The notes beneath the pieces were generated by a model. It saw only the letters and a program-made list of their open reading frames with translations, did no database searches and was not told the DNA's origin. A stretch of 64,000 bases of DNA from Apibacter adventoris. GTDB taxonomy: Bacteria; Bacteroidota; Bacteroidia; Flavobacteriales; Weeksellaceae. Location: the NCBI RefSeq assembly GCF_002964975.1, contig NZ_PSZM01000046.1, positions 372,001 through 436,000 on the forward strand, written 5' to 3'. How positions within the stretch are numbered: the stretch's first letter is position 1; the number at the start of each line of letters is the position of its first letter. Below are positions 24,862 through 63,353 of the stretch, one piece after another. A program made the translations under genes and the position numbers.

Positions 24862-25980
24862 TCATTGATCTTTCTCATTATAATTTCTAACCACAATCCA
24901 ACCGGTTAATTTTCTACCATCTGTAAGATCAATTACATACCAGTAGCTGGCAGAAGGCACATTTCTTCCTAAATAAGTACCATCCCAAACAAATCCCCCT
25001 TTGTCAATTTTAGTATTGACTATTAATTTACCATATCGGTCAAAGATTTTCACGGAACTTCCCGGATATAATTCCAAACCTTTAAGATTCCAAACATCGT
25101 TCACCCCATCTTTATTAGGAGTAATTACATTAGGCAGATTTAAAATAGCAAAAGGAAATGGATTAGAGATACATTCCATAGCATTTTTTACATAAGCATT
25201 ATATACCTCGAATTTCAAATTATGAAAAACTGATGAATATTGCCAGTGAATTTTATCCAAACTATATTGTAATGGAGGATTTCCTACAGCAATAATTTCT
25301 GCAGTGTAATTATTGATCTTTACTTCTTTAATAAAAGGATTATGGAATGTAATATTGACAGAAGAAGAAATACTACAATTGTTTTTGTTGGTTACAGTAA
25401 CGGAATATTTACCCGAGGTGGAGACCTTAATGGATTGAGTAGTTTCCCCGGTACTCCAAAGATAAGTTGCTCCAGGGTTACCTGCATCCAGAGTAATAAT
25501 AGTTCCCTCACACACCGTTTGATCTTTGCCTAAGTTTAAATTAATTCTTTTAATTAAATTTGTTGTGAAATAGTTTTAGATTGGTTATTTCCATAATGGT
25601 AGCTTTGACAATAAAATTTCCTTTATACTGCTCGAGGTATTATCACCTAAAAAAGTATTCTTTTCCCAGGTATAATAATCACCATTTTTTTGTATAATCA
25701 AAAATTACAGCATCAGCGGTACTTATTAATTTTACTTTACTAATTCCATTTACTTTATGCCATATAGTTAGATTAGTGCTTCCATCTCCAAAAAGAGATG
25801 TTTCTTTACCTAATACATAAACATCTCCGAAGTTGGATAATAAAATAGTACAAGACTCACATAAGAGGCCTCAATTTTTTTTACATTGGTAGGGGAAATC
25901 CCTATAGGTAATTTTATTGATTGAAAATTTTGGGAAGCAACTAATAAAAGTCAGATTATTAATATCTTTTCCCATATACT
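24862..25980 (-). pseudogene. Frameshifted T9SS cargo gene with gliding-motility-type C-terminal domain
   Basis: The last about 230 codons are intact: a LGKDQTVCEGTIITLDAGNP Ig-like repeat, then NVITPNKDGVNDVWNL, VKIFDRYGKLI and WDGTYLGRNVPSASYWYVIDL, the type-B sorting domain of the type IX secretion system. Upstream the reading breaks several times: a stop near 25575, frame changes near 25610 and 25690, another after 25825, and a stop inside a signal-peptide-like stretch (KILII*LLLVASQNFQ) near 25950. The broken pieces read as RCC1-like repeats (FGDVYVLGKET, LFGDGSTNLTIWHKVNGI). This is a decaying secreted protein gene of about 370 codons. The intact tail alone has no proper start. Confidence 0.82.
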
Positions 25981-32701: not shown

Positions 32702-33865
32702 ATGAATATCATTTTATTTGATGCAGAAGAAAGAGGAGATCTTCTTCCATTAACATTTACACGACCCGTATCCGAACTTAGAATGGGAATTTTTACTTTT
32801 TCAGAAAGATGGAATAAAATTTTTCAGACAGAAAAAATCTCATTTTTAACCCAAAAATATCTTTCAAAAAAATACCCTGTACAGTATAAAGAAGAAAACA
32901 TATTTATTAATCCCTCATATTTTCCAAATCAGGATTTTATTCTAACAATTAAAAATCTGAAAAAAGGAGAGGCACTAGTATTTAAAAATAAAATAATAGC
33001 AGCAAGGAGTTCAGAAGGTGAATTTTTAGCTCAAAAATTCAATAAAAAAATAGAATATAATTTTAATGGAATCCATATAGCATATCCTTGGAATCTGTTT
33101 ACCTATAATAATCATGCTATTAATTATGATTTTACTCTCGTTTCAAAGCAAAATCAATCACAGACTTTATCTTCAACAGTAAATGTGATAGGGGACAGTT
33201 CAAAAATATTTATAGAAAACGGAGTAACTGCGGAATATGTTACTTTAAATACCCAAGAGGGGGTAATTTATCTGGGGGAAAATTCGGAAATAATGGAGGG
33301 AAGTCACATAAGAGGTAGTTTAGCTTTATGTGAAGGATCTAAAATACACATGGGCGCAAAGGTTTATGGGGGTACAACTATTGGTCCCTATTCTAAAATA
33401 GGAGGAGAAGTTAATAATAGTATTTTAACAGCATATTCTAATAAAGGGCATGATGGGTTTTTGGGAAATTCTGTTTTGGGAGAATGGTGTAATTTAGGGG
33501 CAGATACTAACTCTTCAAATATGAAAAATAATTATGATATTATTAAATGCTGGAACTATCCGCAATCAACATTTATAAGTACAGAATTACAATTTTCAGG
33601 ACTTATAATGGGAGATCACTCAAAATCTGCCATAAATACCCAATTTAATACGGGAACAGTTGTTGGGGTTTTTGCCAATATTTTTACTTCGGGTTTTCCA
33701 CCCAATATAATAAAGTCTTTTTCTTGGGGAGGTAAGTCTGAAAATCTTAAGTTTAATTTTTCAAAAGCTTTAGAAGTTGCAGAAAGAATGATGAAAAGAA
33801 GAAATAAAAAACTATCTGAAGATGAAAAAGATATTTTAGAATATCTATACCTACTTAATAAATAA
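32702..33865 (+). CDS. Putative sugar nucleotidyltransferase (GlmU-like, NTP_transf_4 plus left-handed beta helix)
   Basis: A 387-residue protein. The N-terminal domain begins MNIILFDAEERGDLLPLTFTRPV with the RMGIFTFSERW element of the NTP_transf_4 family; it lacks the classic GxGTRM loop of nucleotidyltransferases. From about residue 160 a left-handed beta helix is seen from hexapeptide-like turns (IGDSSKIFIENGV, SEIMEGSHI, IGPYSKIGG). It may make or modify a nucleotide sugar for the envelope, but substrate and even activity are not established for this Bacteroidetes family. Confidence 0.8.
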   Translation: MNIILFDAEERGDLLPLTFTRPVSELRMGIFTFSERWNKIFQTEKISFLTQKYLSKKYPVQYKEENIFINPSYFPNQDFILTIKNLKKGEALVFKNKIIAARSSEGEFLAQKFNKKIEYNFNGIHIAYPWNLFTYNNHAINYDFTLVSKQNQSQTLSSTVNVIGDSSKIFIENGVTAEYVTLNTQEGVIYLGENSEIMEGSHIRGSLALCEGSKIHMGAKVYGGTTIGPYSKIGGEVNNSILTAYSNKGHDGFLGNSVLGEWCNLGADTNSSNMKNNYDIIKCWNYPQSTFISTELQFSGLIMGDHSKSAINTQFNTGTVVGVFANIFTSGFPPNIIKSFSWGGKSENLKFNFSKALEVAERMMKRRNKKLSEDEKDILEYLYLLNK

Positions 33866-33972: not shown

Positions 33973-33997
33973 TTGTAAAAAAAAAAGCTTAAATTTG
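33973..33997 (+). promoter_or_regulatory. Promoter of the capA-like/capB-like pair
   Basis: TTG at 33973-33975 and TAAATTTG at 33990-33997 match the Bacteroidetes -33 and -7 elements. The spacing between them (14 bases) is shorter than usual. The leader to the ATG at 34029 is about 25 bases. Confidence 0.45.
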
Positions 33998-34028: not shown

Positions 34029-35060
34029 ATGGCTGGAACTTACAACAATATTCTTGAGTTAATTAACAATACACCGTTGGTTCGCTTGAATAGAGTAACA
34101 GAAGGGATGAAAGGTGAGTTTTTTGCGAAACTGGAATGCTTTAATCCTGGACATTCAACTAAAGACAGAATAGCTCTTCATATCATTGAGAATGCTGAAA
34201 AAGAAGGAATTTTAAAACCGGGGGCAACAATTGTCGAAACTACCTCAGGAAATACCGGTTTTTCTATAGCAATGGTTAGCATTGTCAAAGGTTATAAGTG
34301 CATATTAGCCGTTAGTGATAAAACCAAACCAGAGAAAATAGCTTTTTTAAAAGCTATGGGAGCTAAAGTTTTTTTATGCCCTGCTAATGTACCCGCAGAT
34401 GATCCTAAATCTTACTATCAGGTAGCAAAAAGAATAGCAGAAGAAACTCCTAACTCATTATACATCAATCAATATTTCAATAAAGAAAATACACATTCAC
34501 ATTATCTAACTACAGGTCCCGAAATTTGGGAACAAACACAAGGTAAAATAACTCACTTAATAGGATGTACAGGTACAGGAGGAACTTTAACAGGAGCTGC
34601 TGAATTTTTAAAAGAAAAAAATCCTCAAATTAAAATTATAGGAGTAGATGCTGTAGGATCTGTTTTAAAGAAATATTTTGATACAGGAGAATTAGACCCA
34701 AATGAAATTAAACCTTATCAAATTGAAGGTTTAGGGAAGAATTTAATCCCTGGAGCATTAGATTTTTCTGTAGTAGATCAATATATAAAAGTATCAGATG
34801 AGCCTAGTGCATACGCTACACGTGAACTTGCATTAAAAGAAGCAATGATGGTAGGGTATACCAGTGGTGCCTGTTTAGTAGCTGCACGGAAAATAGAAGA
34901 TACTTTTAATGAAAATTCAGTAGTAGTACTTTTATTTCCAGATCATGGATCACGGTATATGACAAAAGTATTTAGTGATGATTGGATGAAATCTCAAGGG
35001 TTTACAAAAAGTAAACTTAACGGTTTAGAATCTAACGCTACTATAGAAAGAGTTAAATAA
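34029..35060 (+). CDS. capA: CysK-like PLP enzyme, probable cysteate synthase (CapA-like)
   Basis: A 343-residue fold-type II PLP enzyme. The Schiff-base Lys is in NPGHSTKDRIALH (about residue 42), the substrate loop is TTSGNTGFSIA, and the phosphate loop is GCTGTGGTLTGAA; FPDHGSRYMTKVFSDDW closes the protein. By sequence alone it is an O-acetylserine sulfhydrylase/cystathionine beta-synthase relative. Because the next gene, 20 bases on, is an alpha-oxoamine synthase, I infer the sulfonolipid pathway, in which CapA makes L-cysteate from O-phosphoserine and sulfite. An ordinary cysteine synthase remains the alternative. Confidence 0.72.
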   Translation: MAGTYNNILELINNTPLVRLNRVTEGMKGEFFAKLECFNPGHSTKDRIALHIIENAEKEGILKPGATIVETTSGNTGFSIAMVSIVKGYKCILAVSDKTKPEKIAFLKAMGAKVFLCPANVPADDPKSYYQVAKRIAEETPNSLYINQYFNKENTHSHYLTTGPEIWEQTQGKITHLIGCTGTGGTLTGAAEFLKEKNPQIKIIGVDAVGSVLKKYFDTGELDPNEIKPYQIEGLGKNLIPGALDFSVVDQYIKVSDEPSAYATRELALKEAMMVGYTSGACLVAARKIEDTFNENSVVVLLFPDHGSRYMTKVFSDDWMKSQGFTKSKLNGLESNATIERVK

Positions 35061-35080
35061 AATAAAGCAAAACTATATTA

Positions 35081-36334
35081 ATGGATATTTTTGAAAGAAT
35101 AAAAAGCCATGAAGGACCTTTAGAAAAGTATGCAGAATATGCAGAAGGAGAATACATGTTTCCCGTTTTAGAAGGAGAAATAGGTTCTAGGATGATATTT
35201 AAAGGCAAAGAAATGGTAATATGGAGTATAAATGATTACCTAGGATTAGCCAATCACCCAGAAGTAAGAAAAACAGATGCCGAAGCGGCAAAAAAATATG
35301 GAATGGCCTACCCAATGGGAGCAAGAGCCATGTCGGGGCAAACCCCATATCATGCTGAATTAGAAAAACAATTAGCTGAATTTGTTAATAAAGAAGCTGC
35401 TTATTTACTAAATTTCGGTTATCAGGGTATGGTTTCTATTATAGATACCATGGTTTCAAAAAATGATGTAATTGTTTATGATGTAGATAGTCATGCTTGT
35501 ATAGTAGATGGAGTAAGATTACATTTTGGAAAAAGGTTTACCTATCAACATAATGATATAGAAAGTTTAGAAAAAAATCTAAAAAGAGCAGAAAAAAACG
35601 CAGCAGAATCTGGTGGGGGAATATTTGTAATTACTGAAGGTGTTTTTGGAATGCGAGGAGAGCAAGGGAAATTAAAAGAAATTATAGAACTTAAAAAGAA
35701 ATATAATTTCCGATTATTAGTAGATGATGCACACGGTTTTGGTACTTTAGGTAAAAGAGGAGCAGGAACAGGTGAAGAACAAAATTGTCAGGATGGAATA
35801 GATTTATATTTTTCAACCTTTGCAAAATCTATGGCAGGCTTTGGGGCTTTTATTGCCGCAGATAAAAAAATTATTAAATTCCTAAAATATAATCTACGTT
35901 CTCAAATTTTTGCAAAGTCTTTACCAATGCCTATGGTTTTAGGAGCACTTAAAAGATTAGAATTACTCAGAAGTAGTTCAGAATTAAAAGACAAACTTTG
36001 GCATAACGTTATAAAACTTCAAAATGGATTAAAAGAAAGAGGTTTTAATATAGGCAATACCAACACTTGTGTTACTCCTGTTTATTTAGAAGGCTCTCCT
36101 GTAGAAGCTTCTTTACTTATTAAAGATATCAGAGAACATTATGGTATTTTTACGAGTGTAGTAGTATATCCTGTAATTCCAAAGGGAATGATTCTTTTAA
36201 GATTAATACCTACAGCAGCTCATACAGACAAAGATATAGATGAAACACTACATGCTTTTGAATCCGTAAGAGAAAAACTTATAAATGGAATATATAAAGC
36301 AGAAGAAGATAAATTACATTTAGATATTAAATAG
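35081..36334 (+). CDS. capB: Alpha-oxoamine synthase, probable cysteate C-fatty-acyltransferase (CapB-like)
   Basis: A 417-residue PLP fold-type I enzyme of the KBL/SPT/BioF family. Visible elements are WSINDYLGLANHPEV, ARAMSGQTPYHAELE, NFGYQGMVS, DVDSHACIVDG, LLVDDAHGFGTLG and the PLP Lys in YFSTFAKSMAGFGAFIA. Family members join an amino acid to an acyl thioester with loss of CO2. Coupling to the CysK-like gene suggests condensation of cysteate with a fatty acyl-CoA or ACP to 3-oxo-capnine, the precursor of sulfobacin-type lipids. Serine palmitoyltransferase or 2-amino-3-ketobutyrate ligase are alternatives; no threonine dehydrogenase is adjacent. Confidence 0.72.
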   Translation: MDIFERIKSHEGPLEKYAEYAEGEYMFPVLEGEIGSRMIFKGKEMVIWSINDYLGLANHPEVRKTDAEAAKKYGMAYPMGARAMSGQTPYHAELEKQLAEFVNKEAAYLLNFGYQGMVSIIDTMVSKNDVIVYDVDSHACIVDGVRLHFGKRFTYQHNDIESLEKNLKRAEKNAAESGGGIFVITEGVFGMRGEQGKLKEIIELKKKYNFRLLVDDAHGFGTLGKRGAGTGEEQNCQDGIDLYFSTFAKSMAGFGAFIAADKKIIKFLKYNLRSQIFAKSLPMPMVLGALKRLELLRSSSELKDKLWHNVIKLQNGLKERGFNIGNTNTCVTPVYLEGSPVEASLLIKDIREHYGIFTSVVVYPVIPKGMILLRLIPTAAHTDKDIDETLHAFESVREKLINGIYKAEEDKLHLDIK

Positions 36335-36350
36335 TAGATAAAATATAATT

Positions 36351-36384
36351 AAAAAAACTCCTTTTATATATAAGGAGTTTTTTT
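36351..36384. terminator. Bidirectional terminator after the capB-like gene
   Basis: Perfect 13-base arms AAAAAAACTCCTT (36351-36363) and its complement (36372-36384) with an 8-base loop; T tracts on both strands serve the convergent aminotransferase gene as well. Confidence 0.85.
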
Positions 36385-36412
36385 ATTATAAAAATTAATA
36401 AATTAAAATAAA

Positions 36413-37609
36413 TTAATCTTTTCGTCCGGGATATACTTCAAGAGCATTTTTAAGAACAATTAATGCTTGTTTTAAATCTTCTTTATCTAAGACATAAGCA
36501 ATACGTACTTCATTCTTTCTTGCACCGTTAGTATAAAAACCCGAAGCTGGTGCCATCATTACCGTTTTGCCTTCATATTCATATTCGGATAGCAACCATG
36601 CACAGAATTTATCTGCATCATCAATAGGAAGTTTTGCTACAGTATAAAAAGCACCCATTGGAATTGGAGAATATACGCCAGGTATTTTATTTAATCCGTC
36701 AATTAAAAAATTGCGTCGTTCTAAATATTTATTATATACTTCTCGCATATAATCTTCTGGAGTATCAATAGAAGCTTCTGCAACAATTTGTCCTAATAAA
36801 GGAGGGCTTAAACGAGCCTGGCAAAATTTCATCACATTATTCTTAAGCTCTTTATTTTTAGTGACTAAAGTCCCAATACGTATTCCACATTCACTGTATC
36901 GTTTAGATACGGAATCAATGAGTACTACATTTTCCTCAATTCCCTTTAAATGAAAAGCAGATATATAAGGAGTATTGTTGTAACAAAACTCACGGTATAC
37001 TTCATCTGAAAATAAATATAAATCATATTTTTTCACCAAATCTTTTATTTGATTCATCTCAGATTGGGTATAGAGATAACCTGTAGGATTATTAGGATTA
37101 CAAATCATAATACCTTTAGTGCGTGGCGTTATAAGATCCTCAAACCTTTCGATAGATGGTAACGCAAAACCCTCTTCAATAGTTGAAACAACAGATTTAA
37201 TTGTAGCTCCAGCAGCAATTGCAAAAGCTGTATAATTAGCATAAGCAGGCTCAGGTACTATAATTTCATCACCAGGATCTAAACAGCTCATAAATGCAAA
37301 ATTCACAGCTTCAGAGCCACCAGTAGTTACAATAATATCATTTTCATCAACATCGATATTAAATCTGTGATAATAATCTGCCAATTTAGATTTAAGACTT
37401 TTTATACCGTCACTCGGACTATATTCTAATATTTTTCTATCGATAGTATGTAAAGCATTCAGTGCAACCTTTGGTGTCTGTATATCTGGTTGGCCTATAT
37501 TAAGATGATATACTTTTATGCCTTTAGATTTAGCCTTATCAGCAAGAGGTACTAATTTTCTTATAGGGGATTCAGGCATTAATTGGCCTCTTTGAGAAGT
37601 TTTTGGCAT
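36413..37609 (-). CDS. Class I PLP aminotransferase (AspC/AlaA-like)
   Basis: A 398-residue fold-type I aminotransferase. Signatures are YHLNIGQPDIQTP, TTGGSEAVNFAF, NPNNPTGYLYT, LFSDEVYREFCY and the PLP Lys in SVSKRYSECGIRIG followed by the conserved Arg. It uses 2-oxoglutarate or pyruvate with an amino acid such as aspartate or alanine; the exact donor cannot be read. Ser-Val-Ser-Lys-Arg-Tyr-Ser is a little unusual. It is convergent with the capB-like gene and has its own candidate promoter. Confidence 0.87.
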   Translation of the reverse strand: MPKTSQRGQLMPESPIRKLVPLADKAKSKGIKVYHLNIGQPDIQTPKVALNALHTIDRKILEYSPSDGIKSLKSKLADYYHRFNIDVDENDIIVTTGGSEAVNFAFMSCLDPGDEIIVPEPAYANYTAFAIAAGATIKSVVSTIEEGFALPSIERFEDLITPRTKGIMICNPNNPTGYLYTQSEMNQIKDLVKKYDLYLFSDEVYREFCYNNTPYISAFHLKGIEENVVLIDSVSKRYSECGIRIGTLVTKNKELKNNVMKFCQARLSPPLLGQIVAEASIDTPEDYMREVYNKYLERRNFLIDGLNKIPGVYSPIPMGAFYTVAKLPIDDADKFCAWLLSEYEYEGKTVMMAPASGFYTNGARKNEVRIAYVLDKEDLKQALIVLKNALEVYPGRKD

Positions 37610-47592: not shown

Positions 47593-48339
47593 TTAATAGG
47601 TCAACATTCCACCATTAACATTAAGCACATGTCCGGTTACATAACTTGACAGATCACTAGCAAGATATAAACAAGCATTAGCTATATCTTCAGGAGTACC
47701 TCCACGCTTTAATGGAATATTATCTCTCCATTGTTGCACTGTTTTTTGATCTAAAACCTGAGTCATTTCAGTTTCAATAAAACCGGGAGCAACAACATTG
47801 CATCTAATGTTTCGAGAACCTAATTCTAAGGCTACAGACTTTGAAAAACCTATAATTCCAGCTTTAGAAGCAGCATAATTAGATTGTCCTGCATTTCCTT
47901 TTATACCAACTACAGAACTCATATTTATAATGGAACCGCTTTTTTGTTTCATCATGGGTTTGGTTACAGCTTTGGTAATATTGAATACAGAATTTAAATT
48001 TATTTTTAAAATTTCCTCCCAATCTTCTTTATTCATTCTTAAGAGAAGGTTATCTTTAGTAATTCCGGCATTATTAACGACTATATCTATTTGGCCAAAT
48101 TCTTTTAAGACTTCATCAACTAAAGTTTGAGCATCATCATAATCAGAAGCATCAGATTTATATCCTTTGATTTTTGTTATGGAAAATAATTCTTTAATTA
48201 GAGAATCAGCTTTTGCAACAGAAGAAACATAGGTAAAAGCTATGTTAGCTCCATGTTGTGCAAACATTTCTACAATTCCTTTTCCTATACCTCGGGTTGC
48301 TCCTGTGATAATCGCTGTTTTTCCTTCAAGCAATTTCAT
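47593..48339 (-). CDS. fabG: 3-Oxoacyl-ACP reductase
   Basis: A 248-residue short-chain dehydrogenase. The NADP loop is TGATRGIGKGI (about residues 12-22), then NNAGITKDNLLLRM, catalytic Ser in NMSSVVGIKGNAGQSNY with YAASK (Tyr and Lys), and NVVAPGFIETEM. It reduces 3-oxoacyl-ACP in fatty-acid elongation. The NNAGITKDNLLLRM and GNAGQSNYAASKAG strings are classic FabG. A role as the reductase of sulfonolipid synthesis is thinkable but position does not support it. Confidence 0.93.
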   Translation of the reverse strand: MKLLEGKTAIITGATRGIGKGIVEMFAQHGANIAFTYVSSVAKADSLIKELFSITKIKGYKSDASDYDDAQTLVDEVLKEFGQIDIVVNNAGITKDNLLLRMNKEDWEEILKINLNSVFNITKAVTKPMMKQKSGSIINMSSVVGIKGNAGQSNYAASKAGIIGFSKSVALELGSRNIRCNVVAPGFIETEMTQVLDQKTVQQWRDNIPLKRGGTPEDIANACLYLASDLSSYVTGHVLNVNGGMLTY

Positions 48340-59049: not shown

Positions 59050-61500
59050 ATGCAAAAAGATATAGTTTTTCATGAAGAATTATATATGGCGTTAGAAATT
59101 GCAAAAAAATATGCTATTGAAAGCCATAACATAGAATATGGAGCACCACATCTGCTTAAAGCTATTCTTCATAGGGATTTATCTCTATTAAAAGAATTAG
59201 AGGCTATGAAAAAAGATGTATTTTTTATTGAAGAATGGGCTGAAGTGAGAATAGATGATATTCCAAAAGCAAATAAAGTGTTTCAATCAAATCCCGACAG
59301 AACTATTGATAATATTATACAAGAAGCAGATGAAGTAAGAGATATTCTTGGTAGAGAAGAGGTAGATTTATATTGTATCATGGTGGCATTGTCTACACCA
59401 GGTGTAGGTTTCAATTTTGATCAAATGAAAAGTTTCCCTATAACTCGTACTGAATTACTAATTGAAGAAGGTGAAATAAAACCCAATCAAGTTCAAGAAA
59501 TGGATGATGGAAATACTAATTTTTCTAGAAAATATTTATATAAATATTGTAAGGATAAGTTAGTACAAGCTAAAAAGAATCCTAAAAATATTGTTGCACG
59601 AGAAAAAGAAATTCAGGAAATAGTAGAAGTGATATGTAGGTTTTCCAAACCTAATGTTTTATTACAAGGTTATCCTGGAGTAGGAAAATCTGAAATAATA
59701 GAAGGATTTATTAATTTAATAGTAAAGAAACAAGTTCCGGATAAATTAGTTAAAACTAAAGTTTTTGAATTGGATTTAGGAACATTAATTGCCGGAGCTT
59801 CATACAAAGGAGAGATAGAAGATAGATTAAAAAAAATATTACAAGAACTAAAAACATATCCTCAAGTAATCCTATTGATAGATGGTATTCATGTTCTTTT
59901 AGATAAAAATAGTGACAATGCAGGATTATCAAGTATACTTAAAAGTGAACTTTCCGGTAATACAGGACTAACATTAATAGTTACTACTACAGTAGACGAA
60001 TATACAAAAAAGATAGAGAAAGATGAAAGTCTTTCAGGAATGTTTGAAGTCATTAAAGTCGAAGAACCTAATGAGGAACAGGCATTTAGAATAATAAAGT
60101 CTGCATTGTTTTCATACTTAAAACATCATGAAATTAAAGTGACAGATGATTCTATAACTGAATCAATAAGACTTTCTAAAAGATATCTTAAAGAAAAATG
60201 TTTGCCAGAATCTGCTTTAAATCTATTAGATAGGACGATGTCAGTAATAAAAACTGCAGGTATTTCATTTTTAAAAGAAAAAGAATCTCTTAAAAAAAAG
60301 TTAGAAGAAATCAAAGAAAGTCCAGGGAATAAAAAATTAGAATTAAAATGGTTTTTAGAAGATTTAAAGAAAAAAGCCCAATATTTAATTGTACAAGAAA
60401 ATAATTTAGAAGAAGAAAATTTAGAAAATAACACAGAAGAAGAAATATTTGAATATTTAGGCAATCTATTGGAAAGGCTTTCGAAAATTGCAAATTCTAA
60501 AAAAGAACACATAGAACCGATTGACCTAACGGCAGTTGTTGCTCAAAAAACGGGAATTCCTGTAGGCAAATTACATTCAGAAGAAAAAGATAGACTGCAG
60601 AATATGGAAGATATTTTAAAAGAAAGAGTCGTAGGGCAAGATTATGCAATACAAGTGATTACAGAGGCCGTGTTAGAATCTCGATCAGGATTGAGTAAAG
60701 CAGGACAGCCTATAGGGTCTTTCTTTTTTTTAGGACCTACCGGAACAGGGAAAACAGAATTAGCAAAAGCTCTAGCAGATTTTTTATTTCAAGATGAGCA
60801 AGCAATCATACGGTTTGATATGTCTGAGTTTAAAGAAGAACATTCAGCAGCCTTACTATATGGAGCTCCCCCGGGATATGTAGGATACGAAGAAGGTGGG
60901 TTATTAGTTAATAAAATAAGACAAAAACCATATTCAATAGTATTATTTGATGAAATAGAAAAAGCACATTCCTCTGTATTTGATGTATTCCTTCAAATTA
61001 TGGATGAAGGAAAATTACATGACAGACTTGGAAAAGAAGGAGATTTTTCTAATGCATTAATTTTATTTACATCTAATATAGGATCTCAGTTTATTGTAGA
61101 TTCTGTTAATAATGAAAACAAACTGCCATCCTCTAACCAGTTAATGGAAATTATGGCTCGTAACTTTAGACCAGAGTTCTTAGGCCGACTTACAGAGATA
61201 GTTCCATTTAGTCCTATAAGTAAAAGCAACGCTATGGGCATATTTGAAATACATCTGAAAAAAGAATTATTAGACTTAGTAAAAAGTCTTAATATTTCAT
61301 TAAAAATATCTGAAGATGCAAAGTCATTTTTAGTAGATAATGGATTTAATGCTACTTATGGAGCAAGACCATTAAAAGGAATAATACGCTCAGAATTGAG
61401 ACGCCCTATGGCTAAAAAAATAATATCAGGAGAGATAAAAGAAGGGGATATCATAAAAGTAGATTTAGAATCAAATAGTTTAAAATGGAAGATAAATTAA
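59050..61500 (+). CDS. clpV: T6SS sheath-recycling AAA+ ATPase ClpV (TssH), first module degenerate
   Basis: An 816-residue ClpB-like protein that disassembles contracted TssB-TssC sheath. Order: Clp-N double repeat (about 1-150), NBD1 with Walker A GYPGVGKS (207-214), a middle helical domain (about 400-500), NBD2 with Walker A GPTGTGKT (562-569), Walker B LFDEIEKAH (Asp634, Glu635) and a C-terminal D2 small domain. NBD1 departs from the family: Walker B is ID-G-IH (Asp278, Gly279 in place of Glu) and the arginine-finger pair is Ser-Gly-Met (329-331). NBD2 keeps all residues. Position next to tssB and tssC identifies it. Confidence 0.93.
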   Translation: MQKDIVFHEELYMALEIAKKYAIESHNIEYGAPHLLKAILHRDLSLLKELEAMKKDVFFIEEWAEVRIDDIPKANKVFQSNPDRTIDNIIQEADEVRDILGREEVDLYCIMVALSTPGVGFNFDQMKSFPITRTELLIEEGEIKPNQVQEMDDGNTNFSRKYLYKYCKDKLVQAKKNPKNIVAREKEIQEIVEVICRFSKPNVLLQGYPGVGKSEIIEGFINLIVKKQVPDKLVKTKVFELDLGTLIAGASYKGEIEDRLKKILQELKTYPQVILLIDGIHVLLDKNSDNAGLSSILKSELSGNTGLTLIVTTTVDEYTKKIEKDESLSGMFEVIKVEEPNEEQAFRIIKSALFSYLKHHEIKVTDDSITESIRLSKRYLKEKCLPESALNLLDRTMSVIKTAGISFLKEKESLKKKLEEIKESPGNKKLELKWFLEDLKKKAQYLIVQENNLEEENLENNTEEEIFEYLGNLLERLSKIANSKKEHIEPIDLTAVVAQKTGIPVGKLHSEEKDRLQNMEDILKERVVGQDYAIQVITEAVLESRSGLSKAGQPIGSFFFLGPTGTGKTELAKALADFLFQDEQAIIRFDMSEFKEEHSAALLYGAPPGYVGYEEGGLLVNKIRQKPYSIVLFDEIEKAHSSVFDVFLQIMDEGKLHDRLGKEGDFSNALILFTSNIGSQFIVDSVNNENKLPSSNQLMEIMARNFRPEFLGRLTEIVPFSPISKSNAMGIFEIHLKKELLDLVKSLNISLKISEDAKSFLVDNGFNATYGARPLKGIIRSELRRPMAKKIISGEIKEGDIIKVDLESNSLKWKIN

Positions 61501-61527
61501 CAATCATAATATAAAAAAAGAAAATCT

Positions 61528-61974
61528 ATGTTATCAAATTTTGGAATTGGAGGTAATGAAGTGCCTCTAGATGCAAATGAAGCAATTATTGAAATAGCAC
61601 AAAACAGAACTTTAATTGCTCAAAAACTAACAGGACAGACTCCTATTAGACCTGAAATTGTAGAAGGTTTAAATACCGTAGAACAAGTGTTTGAACATTT
61701 CAAACCCGAAGTTAAAGTGAATTTTGAAGATGCAGAAGGAGCCACAAAATTTGAAGAATTAAAATTTAAAAATTTAGGAGACTTTGGCATTAAAGGAGTT
61801 ACAGCTCAAAGTAAATTTCTGACAGATTTACAAATGGAGAAAGAACAGTATCAAAAAATAATAAAACAACTTAAATCCAATAAAATTTTAAAAGCAGCTC
61901 TAGAAGATCCCGATGCTAAAGGAGCTCTTATGGAAACTATTGAAGGATTAATTAATGAATTAAATCAAAAATAA
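61528..61974 (+). CDS. tssB: T6SS sheath small subunit TssB
   Basis: A 148-residue protein of the Bacteroidetes TssB type. After a variable N-terminus come IRPEIVEGLNTVEQVFEHFKP, VKVNFEDAEGATKFEELKFKNLGDF and the helical end LMETIEGLINELNQK. It pairs with TssC to build the contractile sheath. It lies 27 bases behind clpV and 2 bases before tssC, so translation is likely coupled. Confidence 0.9.
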   Translation: MLSNFGIGGNEVPLDANEAIIEIAQNRTLIAQKLTGQTPIRPEIVEGLNTVEQVFEHFKPEVKVNFEDAEGATKFEELKFKNLGDFGIKGVTAQSKFLTDLQMEKEQYQKIIKQLKSNKILKAALEDPDAKGALMETIEGLINELNQK

Positions 61975-61976
61975 TT

Positions 61977-63353
61977 ATGGCTAAAGAAGATATAAAAGCA
62001 CAAGTTCAGGTAAAAGGAGTGGCTGTAGCTGAACCCACAGGAAAAGTTAGTATTCAGAAAGGACTAGATAAACTAGCTAAATTTGGTGGTTTTGATTTAT
62101 TAGAAGCCTCTATAGAAAATGTTCAAAATTTGAATCCCGAACGTAAAGCCAGACGTCAAATTTTCTTAGGAGATGCTAATAAAAAAGAAGAGAGAAATTC
62201 GTTAAAAAAAACATTAGAACTATGGTTAGGAATATTAAAAAACAATTCAAACCTAACCGATATGGTAGCTCAAAGTGAAGATAAAAGTAAAGTTGCAGAA
62301 AAAACACTTACTAAAAATTTAGCAACAGCGATTAGAGAAACAGAAGAATTAGAAAAAGCATATAGAACTATAGCTTTATTTTATAAAAATACTGAACAAG
62401 ATAAAGTGAAAAATGTTTCTATAATCAATGCAGAATTAGAACAATTAACAGATTTAGATAATACCAGATTTATAGAAGCCATTCATCAAGAACTAGTAAA
62501 TAATTATGATCGTTTAGATCTTAAAAACAACTATGGCTTGGTTGTTATCCCAGGATACCTAGGAAGTAATAAAGTAGTAGAAAAATGGGCTAAAATTGCA
62601 CATGAAAATAAAGTTATGCTCGTGACGGATTTTGCTCATTTAGATGAACCAGATGATGTAATGGAAATGTTTGACGAGGCATATTTAACAGGTGGAGATA
62701 TTTACCGTTCTAATGTATTAATGACTTGTAATTGGTTAGTAGGACGAGGTAAATTTGATGAAGTAGAAGAGGCTGATGATTTATATATCCCTCCATCTGC
62801 GGCATTAGCTGGGAAAATCTATGGAACATTAATGTCCCAAGTAACAGCAGGTAAAAAATTTGGAGGTATTAATGAAGTAGATGGAGTAAAATTTGACCTT
62901 AAAAAAAGTGAAATTGCCAGTTTAGAAAATATGGGCTTAATTCCTATGGTTAATGAATATGGAAAAGTTATGGCATTTTCAGGGAAAACATTATTTAATG
63001 GAGATAATTTAGGTCTTCAGACTTATTCCGTAGTCCGAGTTTTCGATTATGTAACTAAAGTTTTAATGGATTTCTTAAACCGTAGAGCTTTTGAAAACTT
63101 TACAGCTAAAACACGTAAAGAAATCATGGCACAAATTGTTCGTTTCTTGGATGGAATTACTGGTCCCGATAAACTTATTGAAAATTTTGAAGTAAGAAGA
63201 TTTGAACAAGACCCTATTCAAAAAGATCGTATTTATTTAGATATTCATATGAAACCTTATTTTCCTGCCAAAAATTTCCTAATAAAAATGGATGGACATA
63301 AAGGTGACGATGGTAATTCTAATGAATGGGATACAGAATACGAACAAAAGTAA
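61977..63353 (+). CDS. tssC: T6SS sheath large subunit TssC
   Basis: A 458-residue protein of the Bacteroidetes TssC type (DUF5458). Recognisable parts are the IQKGLDKLAKFGGFDLLEAS start, NNYGLVVIPGYLGSNKVVEKWAK, VLMTCNWLVGRGKFDEVEEADD, PPSAALAGKIYGTLMSQ and the C-terminal VRRFEQDPIQKDRIYLDIHMKPYFPAKNF. Together with TssB it forms the tail sheath. A stable hairpin lies just downstream. Confidence 0.93.
   Translation: MAKEDIKAQVQVKGVAVAEPTGKVSIQKGLDKLAKFGGFDLLEASIENVQNLNPERKARRQIFLGDANKKEERNSLKKTLELWLGILKNNSNLTDMVAQSEDKSKVAEKTLTKNLATAIRETEELEKAYRTIALFYKNTEQDKVKNVSIINAELEQLTDLDNTRFIEAIHQELVNNYDRLDLKNNYGLVVIPGYLGSNKVVEKWAKIAHENKVMLVTDFAHLDEPDDVMEMFDEAYLTGGDIYRSNVLMTCNWLVGRGKFDEVEEADDLYIPPSAALAGKIYGTLMSQVTAGKKFGGINEVDGVKFDLKKSEIASLENMGLIPMVNEYGKVMAFSGKTLFNGDNLGLQTYSVVRVFDYVTKVLMDFLNRRAFENFTAKTRKEIMAQIVRFLDGITGPDKLIENFEVRRFEQDPIQKDRIYLDIHMKPYFPAKNFLIKMDGHKGDDGNSNEWDTEYEQK

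Follow-up and report, generated by a model that had tools for sequence, protein, structure and literature searches.

Are two neighbouring genes of Apibacter adventoris, one encoding a CysK-like protein and the other an alpha-oxoamine synthase, the start of a route to sulfonolipids, or are they housekeeping genes that adjoin by chance? Sulfonolipids act on hosts and protists and play a part in gliding, and Apibacter are gut symbionts of bees. A first-pass annotation had matched the pair to the logic of capnine synthesis by CapA and CapB. We examined this proposal in a 64,000-nucleotide stretch of DNA (the window; positions 372001-436000 of contig C46, in a 2.75 Mb genome of 47 contigs) and by comparison with related genomes. 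Phylogenetic trees of both proteins, discriminating residues, and scores against solved enzymes all support the match, and we are highly confident, on this sequence evidence, that the pair represents capA and capB of the sulfonolipid (capnine) pathway.

Organization of the capA-capB locus

The predicted cysteate synthase gene capA (34029-35060, + strand) and the predicted cysteate fatty acyltransferase gene capB (35081-36334, + strand) are intact open reading frames with ATG starts, encoding 343 and 417 amino acids, respectively. They are co-directional and separated by exactly 20 bases (35061-35080), as initially described. This gap contains no terminator-like structure, which fits a single transcript; folding 61 bases across the junction likewise gave no structure comparable to that found downstream of capB (z +0.17).

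The first-pass annotation had further placed the pair under one promoter and one terminator; our analysis lends plausibility to the terminator but does not establish the promoter. A box of the form TAnnTTTG, which we take to be the Bacteroidota -7 consensus, begins 39 bases 5′ of capA (TAAATTTG, 33990-33997, + strand). However, the window contains 18 copies of the motif TANNTTTGC, compared with 19.9 expected from shuffled sequence, a frequency not above chance, leaving a weak, possible -7 box chosen by position alone. Downstream, a 14-pair hairpin (36350-36385) lies between capB and a convergent aminotransferase gene (36413-37609). Our terminator scan, which found 2 terminator-like sites in the region against 1.4 expected, calls this hairpin on the - strand only, i.e. 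for the convergent gene. On the + strand it folds strongly (-17.3 kcal/mol, z -5.5, equalled by 0 of 200 shuffles), the U run falling within the stem. Given this fold and the position of the U run, bidirectional use is plausible, and the hairpin probably terminates capB and the convergent gene alike. Scanning the window for Rfam families and tRNAs returned no matches.

Other features of the window include a GlmU-like gene directly upstream of capA (32702-33865; TIGR03991, 416 bits), which by eye also lies 5′ of capA in another Apibacter genome and in two genomes of genus g18 (loci L131, L132, and L133); a functional connection with capA is not apparent. A T9SS type B sorting domain (TIGR04131, 90.7 bits) in the protein encoded at 24862-25515 (- strand) fits type IX secretion in the genus. 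At 59050-63353, a gene for a ClpB/ClpV-type AAA ATPase precedes two others, whose products look by eye like TssB and TssC of the type VI secretion sheath but have no NCBIfam match at E 1e-8; a type VI secretion system has been reported in Apibacter in the text available to us (PMC5913662).

CapA groups with cysteate synthases

The 343-residue product of capA consists of a single Pfam domain, PALP (PF00291, residues 9-305, E 1.2e-76), with no CBS regulatory domain. Its best NCBIfam model is that of CapA itself (NF053679, CysteaSynCapA; 560.3 bits, cut-off 600), which leads the next-best model by 170 bits; the cystathionine beta-synthase (CBS) model scores 389.9 bits and the models for CysK (cysteine synthase A) score 282-312 bits. 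In a survey of 80 genomes from 33 genera of the family, the 600-bit cut-off is reached in a single genome among the matches listed. We therefore set aside the sub-cut-off score as an argument against CapA, as the other 79 genomes also fall below 600. Automatic annotation may overlook the enzyme across the family, with a CapA-tier match in 78 of 80 genomes and one past the cut-off.

Among the matches listed in these genomes, NF053679 scores form three tiers, at ~535-604, 436-480, and ~204 bits or less, which we take to be CapA, a CBS-like second tier, and CysK-like proteins, respectively. The closest solved chain to the window protein is 9k2p_A (466.8 bits). Phylogeny had been suggested as a check on the original reading, and a maximum-likelihood tree of 36 proteins places the window protein, a putative fold-type II PLP enzyme, inside a capA clade of 20 rows plus 9k2p (support 100/99). 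The second-tier group (98/95) is sister to this clade, the two joining at 100/99, and a separate CysK group (96/98) holds the genome's own PALP protein from contig C40. On this topology we reject CysK identity. The 20 capA rows are a chosen subset of the fetched loci, two of them shortened (L129 to 314 and L130 to 292 amino acids), and most were labelled by position beside capB or by NF053679 score rather than by assay; the CBS rows do not form one clade. As for the CapB and reductase trees below, the tool flags long branches.

At fourteen positions, 19 or more of the 20 CapA rows share a residue found in none of the eight CBS or second-tier rows. These include T71 and F78 around the TSGNTG loop, K237-N238 (E-D in CBS and the second tier), and T278. 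Should the pocket be more basic as a result, it would be well matched to phosphoserine and sulfite, both of them anionic. Together with the tree, these residues lead us to reject CBS identity.

CapB carries the lysine that marks cysteate acyltransferases

The product of capB matches Aminotran_1_2 over residues 44-392 (E 1.4e-36). Scores against solved relatives favor cysteate enzymes, with 671 bits for 28eh_A, which is named cysteate-C-fatty acyltransferase, and 568.6 for SulA (7u7h), compared with 228.7 for serine palmitoyltransferase (SPT; 3a2b) and 209.9 for KBL. The best NCBIfam model is that of SPT (293.5 bits, cut-off 640), there being no CapB model among the matches. In a tree of 38 proteins, including 22 capB rows chosen from the fetched loci, the window protein falls within a fully supported clade of 24 rows (100/100) that holds both 28eh and 7u7h, with SPT 3a2b and three annotated KBLs falling outside it. 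SPT is placed next to this clade with weak support (82/34). The suggested phylogeny check thus came out for CapB as it had for CapA.

K279 of the window protein corresponds to K281 of SulA, and is a lysine in all 24 rows of the clade and in none of the 14 others, where the residue is N in seven (KBL or KBL-like), A in five (including SPT), and T in two (BioF and ALAS). According to the portion of the SulA study available to us, Lys281 may serve to tell SulA from SPT, which has Ala there (PMC9304779). Residues N51, H138, D215, H218, K249, and R374 likewise correspond to SulA N53, H140, D217, H220, K251, and R376, a PLP-binding and catalytic set that is common to other alpha-oxoamine synthases too. 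On tree placement and K279 we reject both KBL, whose rows carry N, and SPT, with its Ala, as the identity of this protein. Querying the genome, rated 100% complete, with CapB gave no match at E 0.001 or better besides CapB itself, and accordingly we found no KBL, BioF, or SPT to compete for the role.

A second CapB-like protein, 63-64% identical and with K279 retained, is encoded away from capA in two genomes of genus g9 (G078 C3:461400-462593 and G008 C1:3763251-3764441).

The gene pair is a family trait

Among the matches listed, CapA (534 bits or more) is present in 78 of the 80 family genomes, counting one copy cut by a contig end (G047), and 79 have CapB; the genomes behind the three misses are 76-80% complete. 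Both genes occur in 77 genomes, where they are adjacent in 62, separated by one SDR gene in seven, and unlinked in eight. The pair is thus an ordinary trait of the family, not special to this host-associated strain.

Within the genus, the window CapB is 83-86% identical to CapB of the four other Apibacter genomes drawn; in Apibacter muscae it is encoded at NZ_SELG01000032.1:121310-122557 (locus L009). More broadly, a capA of at least 55% identity lies directly upstream of capB in 39 of the best 80 of 178 named Bacteroidota loci, 75 of these 80 having at least 1.3 kb of upstream sequence. Loci with no capA directly upstream in the flank examined include many from Flavobacterium, some from Capnocytophaga (two loci), and others from families outside the Flavobacteriales.

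A CapC-type reductase in related operons

Capnine synthesis requires a third, reductive step, and the first-pass annotation had noted that its reductase is not adjacent to the pair. This is borne out: the 20-base gap leaves no CapC-type SDR between capA and capB, and the one SDR family match in the window (47593-48339) is FabG, scoring above the cut-off of the FabG-type model TIGR01830, on which ground we set it aside as the missing reductase.

Related operons differ in this respect. In all seven family genomes with a one-gene gap, which belong to genera g18 and g29 (the latter perhaps Ornithobacterium), an SDR gene sits between capA and capB, as read directly in four genomes and from match coordinates in the other three. 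In Joostella (L051), a relative adjoins capB on the upstream side, and a single other gene separates it from capA. Across 196 genomes of the order, a CapC-level match (E 1e-60 or better) occurs in seven. At all six CapC-level loci outside the family, which represent four further families, the SDR directly adjoins capB. On its far side, capA follows directly in four of the six and ~0.9 kb away in L179; in L183 there is no capA in the 3.8 kb examined. This operon SDR is most likely CapC; the characterised CapC comes from Ornithobacterium rhinotracheale, as stated in the text consulted (PMC12927429).

The Apibacter genome has no CapC orthologue, its best match scoring 110.4 bits compared with 517-551 bits for the operon proteins, among the matches listed. 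Four of the seven one-gene-gap genomes (G076, G029, G042, and G059) supplied rows of the CapC profile and match it by construction, and the other three (G018, G050, and G065) did not. The genome's own SDRs align to this profile at 24-36% identity over parts of their length.

A KdsR-like candidate for the third step

The genome contains 15 SDR family matches, eight of which were taken into a reductase tree. One of them, L097 (C45:157604-158401, 266 amino acids, outside the window), retains the S-Y-K residues and has as its best model the 3-ketodihydrosphingosine reductase KdsR (199.2 bits, cut-off 400). In the tree, the L097 group and CapC fall together against the seven other own SDRs (93/90, with the long-branch warning). 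The SDRs L095 and L096, which had appeared 3-KDSR-like by eye, lie on the opposite side of this branch from CapC and were dropped as candidates.

The distribution of L097 is complementary to that of the operon SDR. Among the matches listed, an orthologue (233 bits or more) is found in 72 of the 80 family genomes, and the eight without one are the seven with an operon SDR and one that is 56% complete (G031). This pattern rests on two of 33 genera, with their CapC proteins in a single clade, and may reflect one event. Across the order, none of the seven CapC genomes is among the 76 of 196 with a KdsR-like match (E 1e-40). All 76 come from two families, f1 and f3, with 38 in each; outside f1, the six CapC genomes fall in f4, f6, f8, and f9, where the drawn genomes have no KdsR-like match; being confounded by family in this way, the order-wide exclusivity adds little. 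The remaining 113 of the 196 genomes have neither a CapC-level nor a KdsR-like match.

Because no serine palmitoyltransferase was detected in the genome, a KdsR-like enzyme there would need another substrate, and 3-ketocapnine fits. Inspection by eye of five regions around the KdsR-like gene revealed no neighbour common to all and no evident acyltransferase; the flank is common to the two Apibacter regions, and two of the others (G022 and G037) have an AroA-like gene upstream. We regard as evenly balanced the proposal that the KdsR-like enzyme acts as 3-ketocapnine reductase in Apibacter and most of the family, that it was displaced and lost where capA-SDR-capB operons occur, and that Apibacter would thereby make sulfonolipids. 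What had been a reductase that is "not adjacent" becomes, through its distribution relative to the operon reductase, one named candidate gene.

Two other loci outside the window were observed alongside these SDRs. A short-chain dehydrogenase match at C24:113710-114081 (L098) has two internal TAG stops and is apparently a decayed gene. L100 (C46:67468-67815) lies within an open frame of 2377 codons; the 697 residues of it that were scanned match PfaA, a polyunsaturated fatty acid synthase (314 bits, cut-off 1010), and carrier-like repeats can be made out by eye.

Alternative readings of the pair and of the third step

Chance adjacency of a housekeeping CysK and the KBL of threonine breakdown would draw on the fold families they have in common with CapA and CapB, and the KBL and CysK models do score significantly. 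We consider this reading close to negligible. Another PALP protein of the genome, on C40, takes the place among the CysKs; the clades are fully separated, with K279 in CapB against N in 7 of 7 KBL or KBL-like rows; the genes adjoin in 62 of the 77 family genomes that have both; and, except for the second g9 CapB, the other alpha-oxoamine synthases listed in the family are 31-35% identical and encoded elsewhere. The first-pass annotation had itself named the grouping of its CapA-like protein with housekeeping CysK and of its CapB-like protein with KBL as evidence against it; in our sequence comparisons, this grouping did not occur. Were CapB instead a serine palmitoyltransferase, the pathway would lead to sphingolipids rather than sulfonolipids. 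The SPT model is its best NCBIfam match, SPT is its weak neighbour in the tree, and a KdsR-like reductase is present, but this is very improbable given less than half the score against SPT 3a2b that it has against either cysteate enzyme, the Ala that SPT carries at the Lys281 position in the SulA study (PMC9304779), and the linkage of capB to a cysteate synthase-like gene. CapA could also be the genome's cystathionine beta-synthase, as the CBS-like second tier is absent here. Among the matches listed, 57 of the 80 family genomes have this tier, the sister group of CapA, and none of the Apibacter genomes drawn does; besides CapA and the CysK-like protein, searching the genome gave just three remote PALP proteins. 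We nevertheless judge it highly unlikely, in light of the 14 CapA-constant positions, the coexistence of CapA and second tier in 56 of 80 genomes (among the matches listed), and the linkage of capA to capB.

The identity of the third enzyme is more finely poised. Any of several other SDRs, such as the YdfG-like L092 or FabG, could carry out the reduction, alone or in combination, a possibility that we hold tentatively and as somewhat doubtful. L092 slightly outscores L097 on the CapC profile (111.5 versus 105.2 bits), the genome offers 15 SDR family matches to choose from, and in Chryseobacterium gleum, 3 of 12 tested unlinked SDRs were active in the data available to us (PMC11211663). Against this, the alignment of L092 covers the Rossmann core only, whereas that of L097 runs nearly end to end; L097 groups with CapC against the seven other own SDRs in the long-branch-flagged tree; and it is for L097 that the complementary distribution is seen. 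Redundancy is also possible, as C. gleum and Alistipes finegoldii are each described in the same text as having three active, unlinked reductases (PMC11211663).

A proposed sulfonolipid pathway in Apibacter

Returning to the pair as capA and capB, we infer the enzyme activities, the assignment of the third step, and the lipid product from sequence. CapA, a CBS-like PLP enzyme lacking the regulatory domain, would convert O-phospho-L-serine and sulfite to L-cysteate. CapB would condense cysteate with an acyl-ACP or acyl-CoA to form 3-ketocapnine and CO2, acyl-ACP being the suggested thioester by analogy with SulA. The KdsR-like SDR, in place of a CapC-type SDR, would probably reduce 3-ketocapnine to capnine, and an N-acyltransferase would last convert capnine to a sulfonolipid. 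We did not find this N-acyltransferase, and the passages of the sulfonolipid papers available to us name no gene for it. Upstream, two strong PAPS-reductase-family matches, a sulfite reductase on contig C3, and a SerC-like protein scoring just below its cut-off (440.5 against 443.6 bits) suggest that sulfite and phosphoserine are plausibly available; C46 carries a weak further PAPS-family match.

The pathway itself is not new, having been described in relatives, and the pair clearly adds a case of it in Apibacter; our literature search found no report linking Apibacter with sulfonolipids. The pair would place sulfonolipid synthesis in a genus of bee-gut symbionts, and if the proposal is true, Apibacter sulfonolipids could bear on gliding and on contact with the bee gut. 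Beyond this, our analysis adds the family-wide conservation of the pair, the occurrence across several families of an operon that includes an SDR gene, and a named reductase candidate to test.

Comparison with known systems

CapA and CapB are known from Capnocytophaga ochracea (Liu et al. 2022, as cited in the portions of PMC10191378 and PMC12927429 available to us). Apibacter resembles Capnocytophaga in having two equivalent enzymes, and the window CapB, two Capnocytophaga CapBs, and 28eh share one clade. The window CapB is, however, 70% identical to these two proteins, and neither of their loci has a full CapA within the flank examined. The window CapB and SulA of Alistipes finegoldii (PDB 7u7h; PMC9304779) have the same active-site residues (N, H, D, H, K, K, and R), Lys281 included. 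Alistipes differs upstream, being described in the available passages as making cysteate with an archaeal-type synthase and not with CapA (PMC10191378), whereas the Apibacter genome has CapA.

The Cys/CFAT/KCR system of Chryseobacterium gleum, as presented in the text available to us (PMC11211663), comes from a member of the Weeksellaceae, like Apibacter, and in both the reductases are unclustered; in a Chryseobacterium MAG (L011), capA and capB also lie side by side, as in the window. For C. gleum, 33 reductase homologues are reported, with activity in 3 of the 12 tested (PMC11211663), compared with 15 SDR matches and one best fit here. Finally, CapC of Ornithobacterium rhinotracheale probably corresponds to the SDR that separates capA from capB in genera g18 and g29. 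This SDR has no orthologue in the Apibacter genome, where the KdsR-like reductase may take its place.
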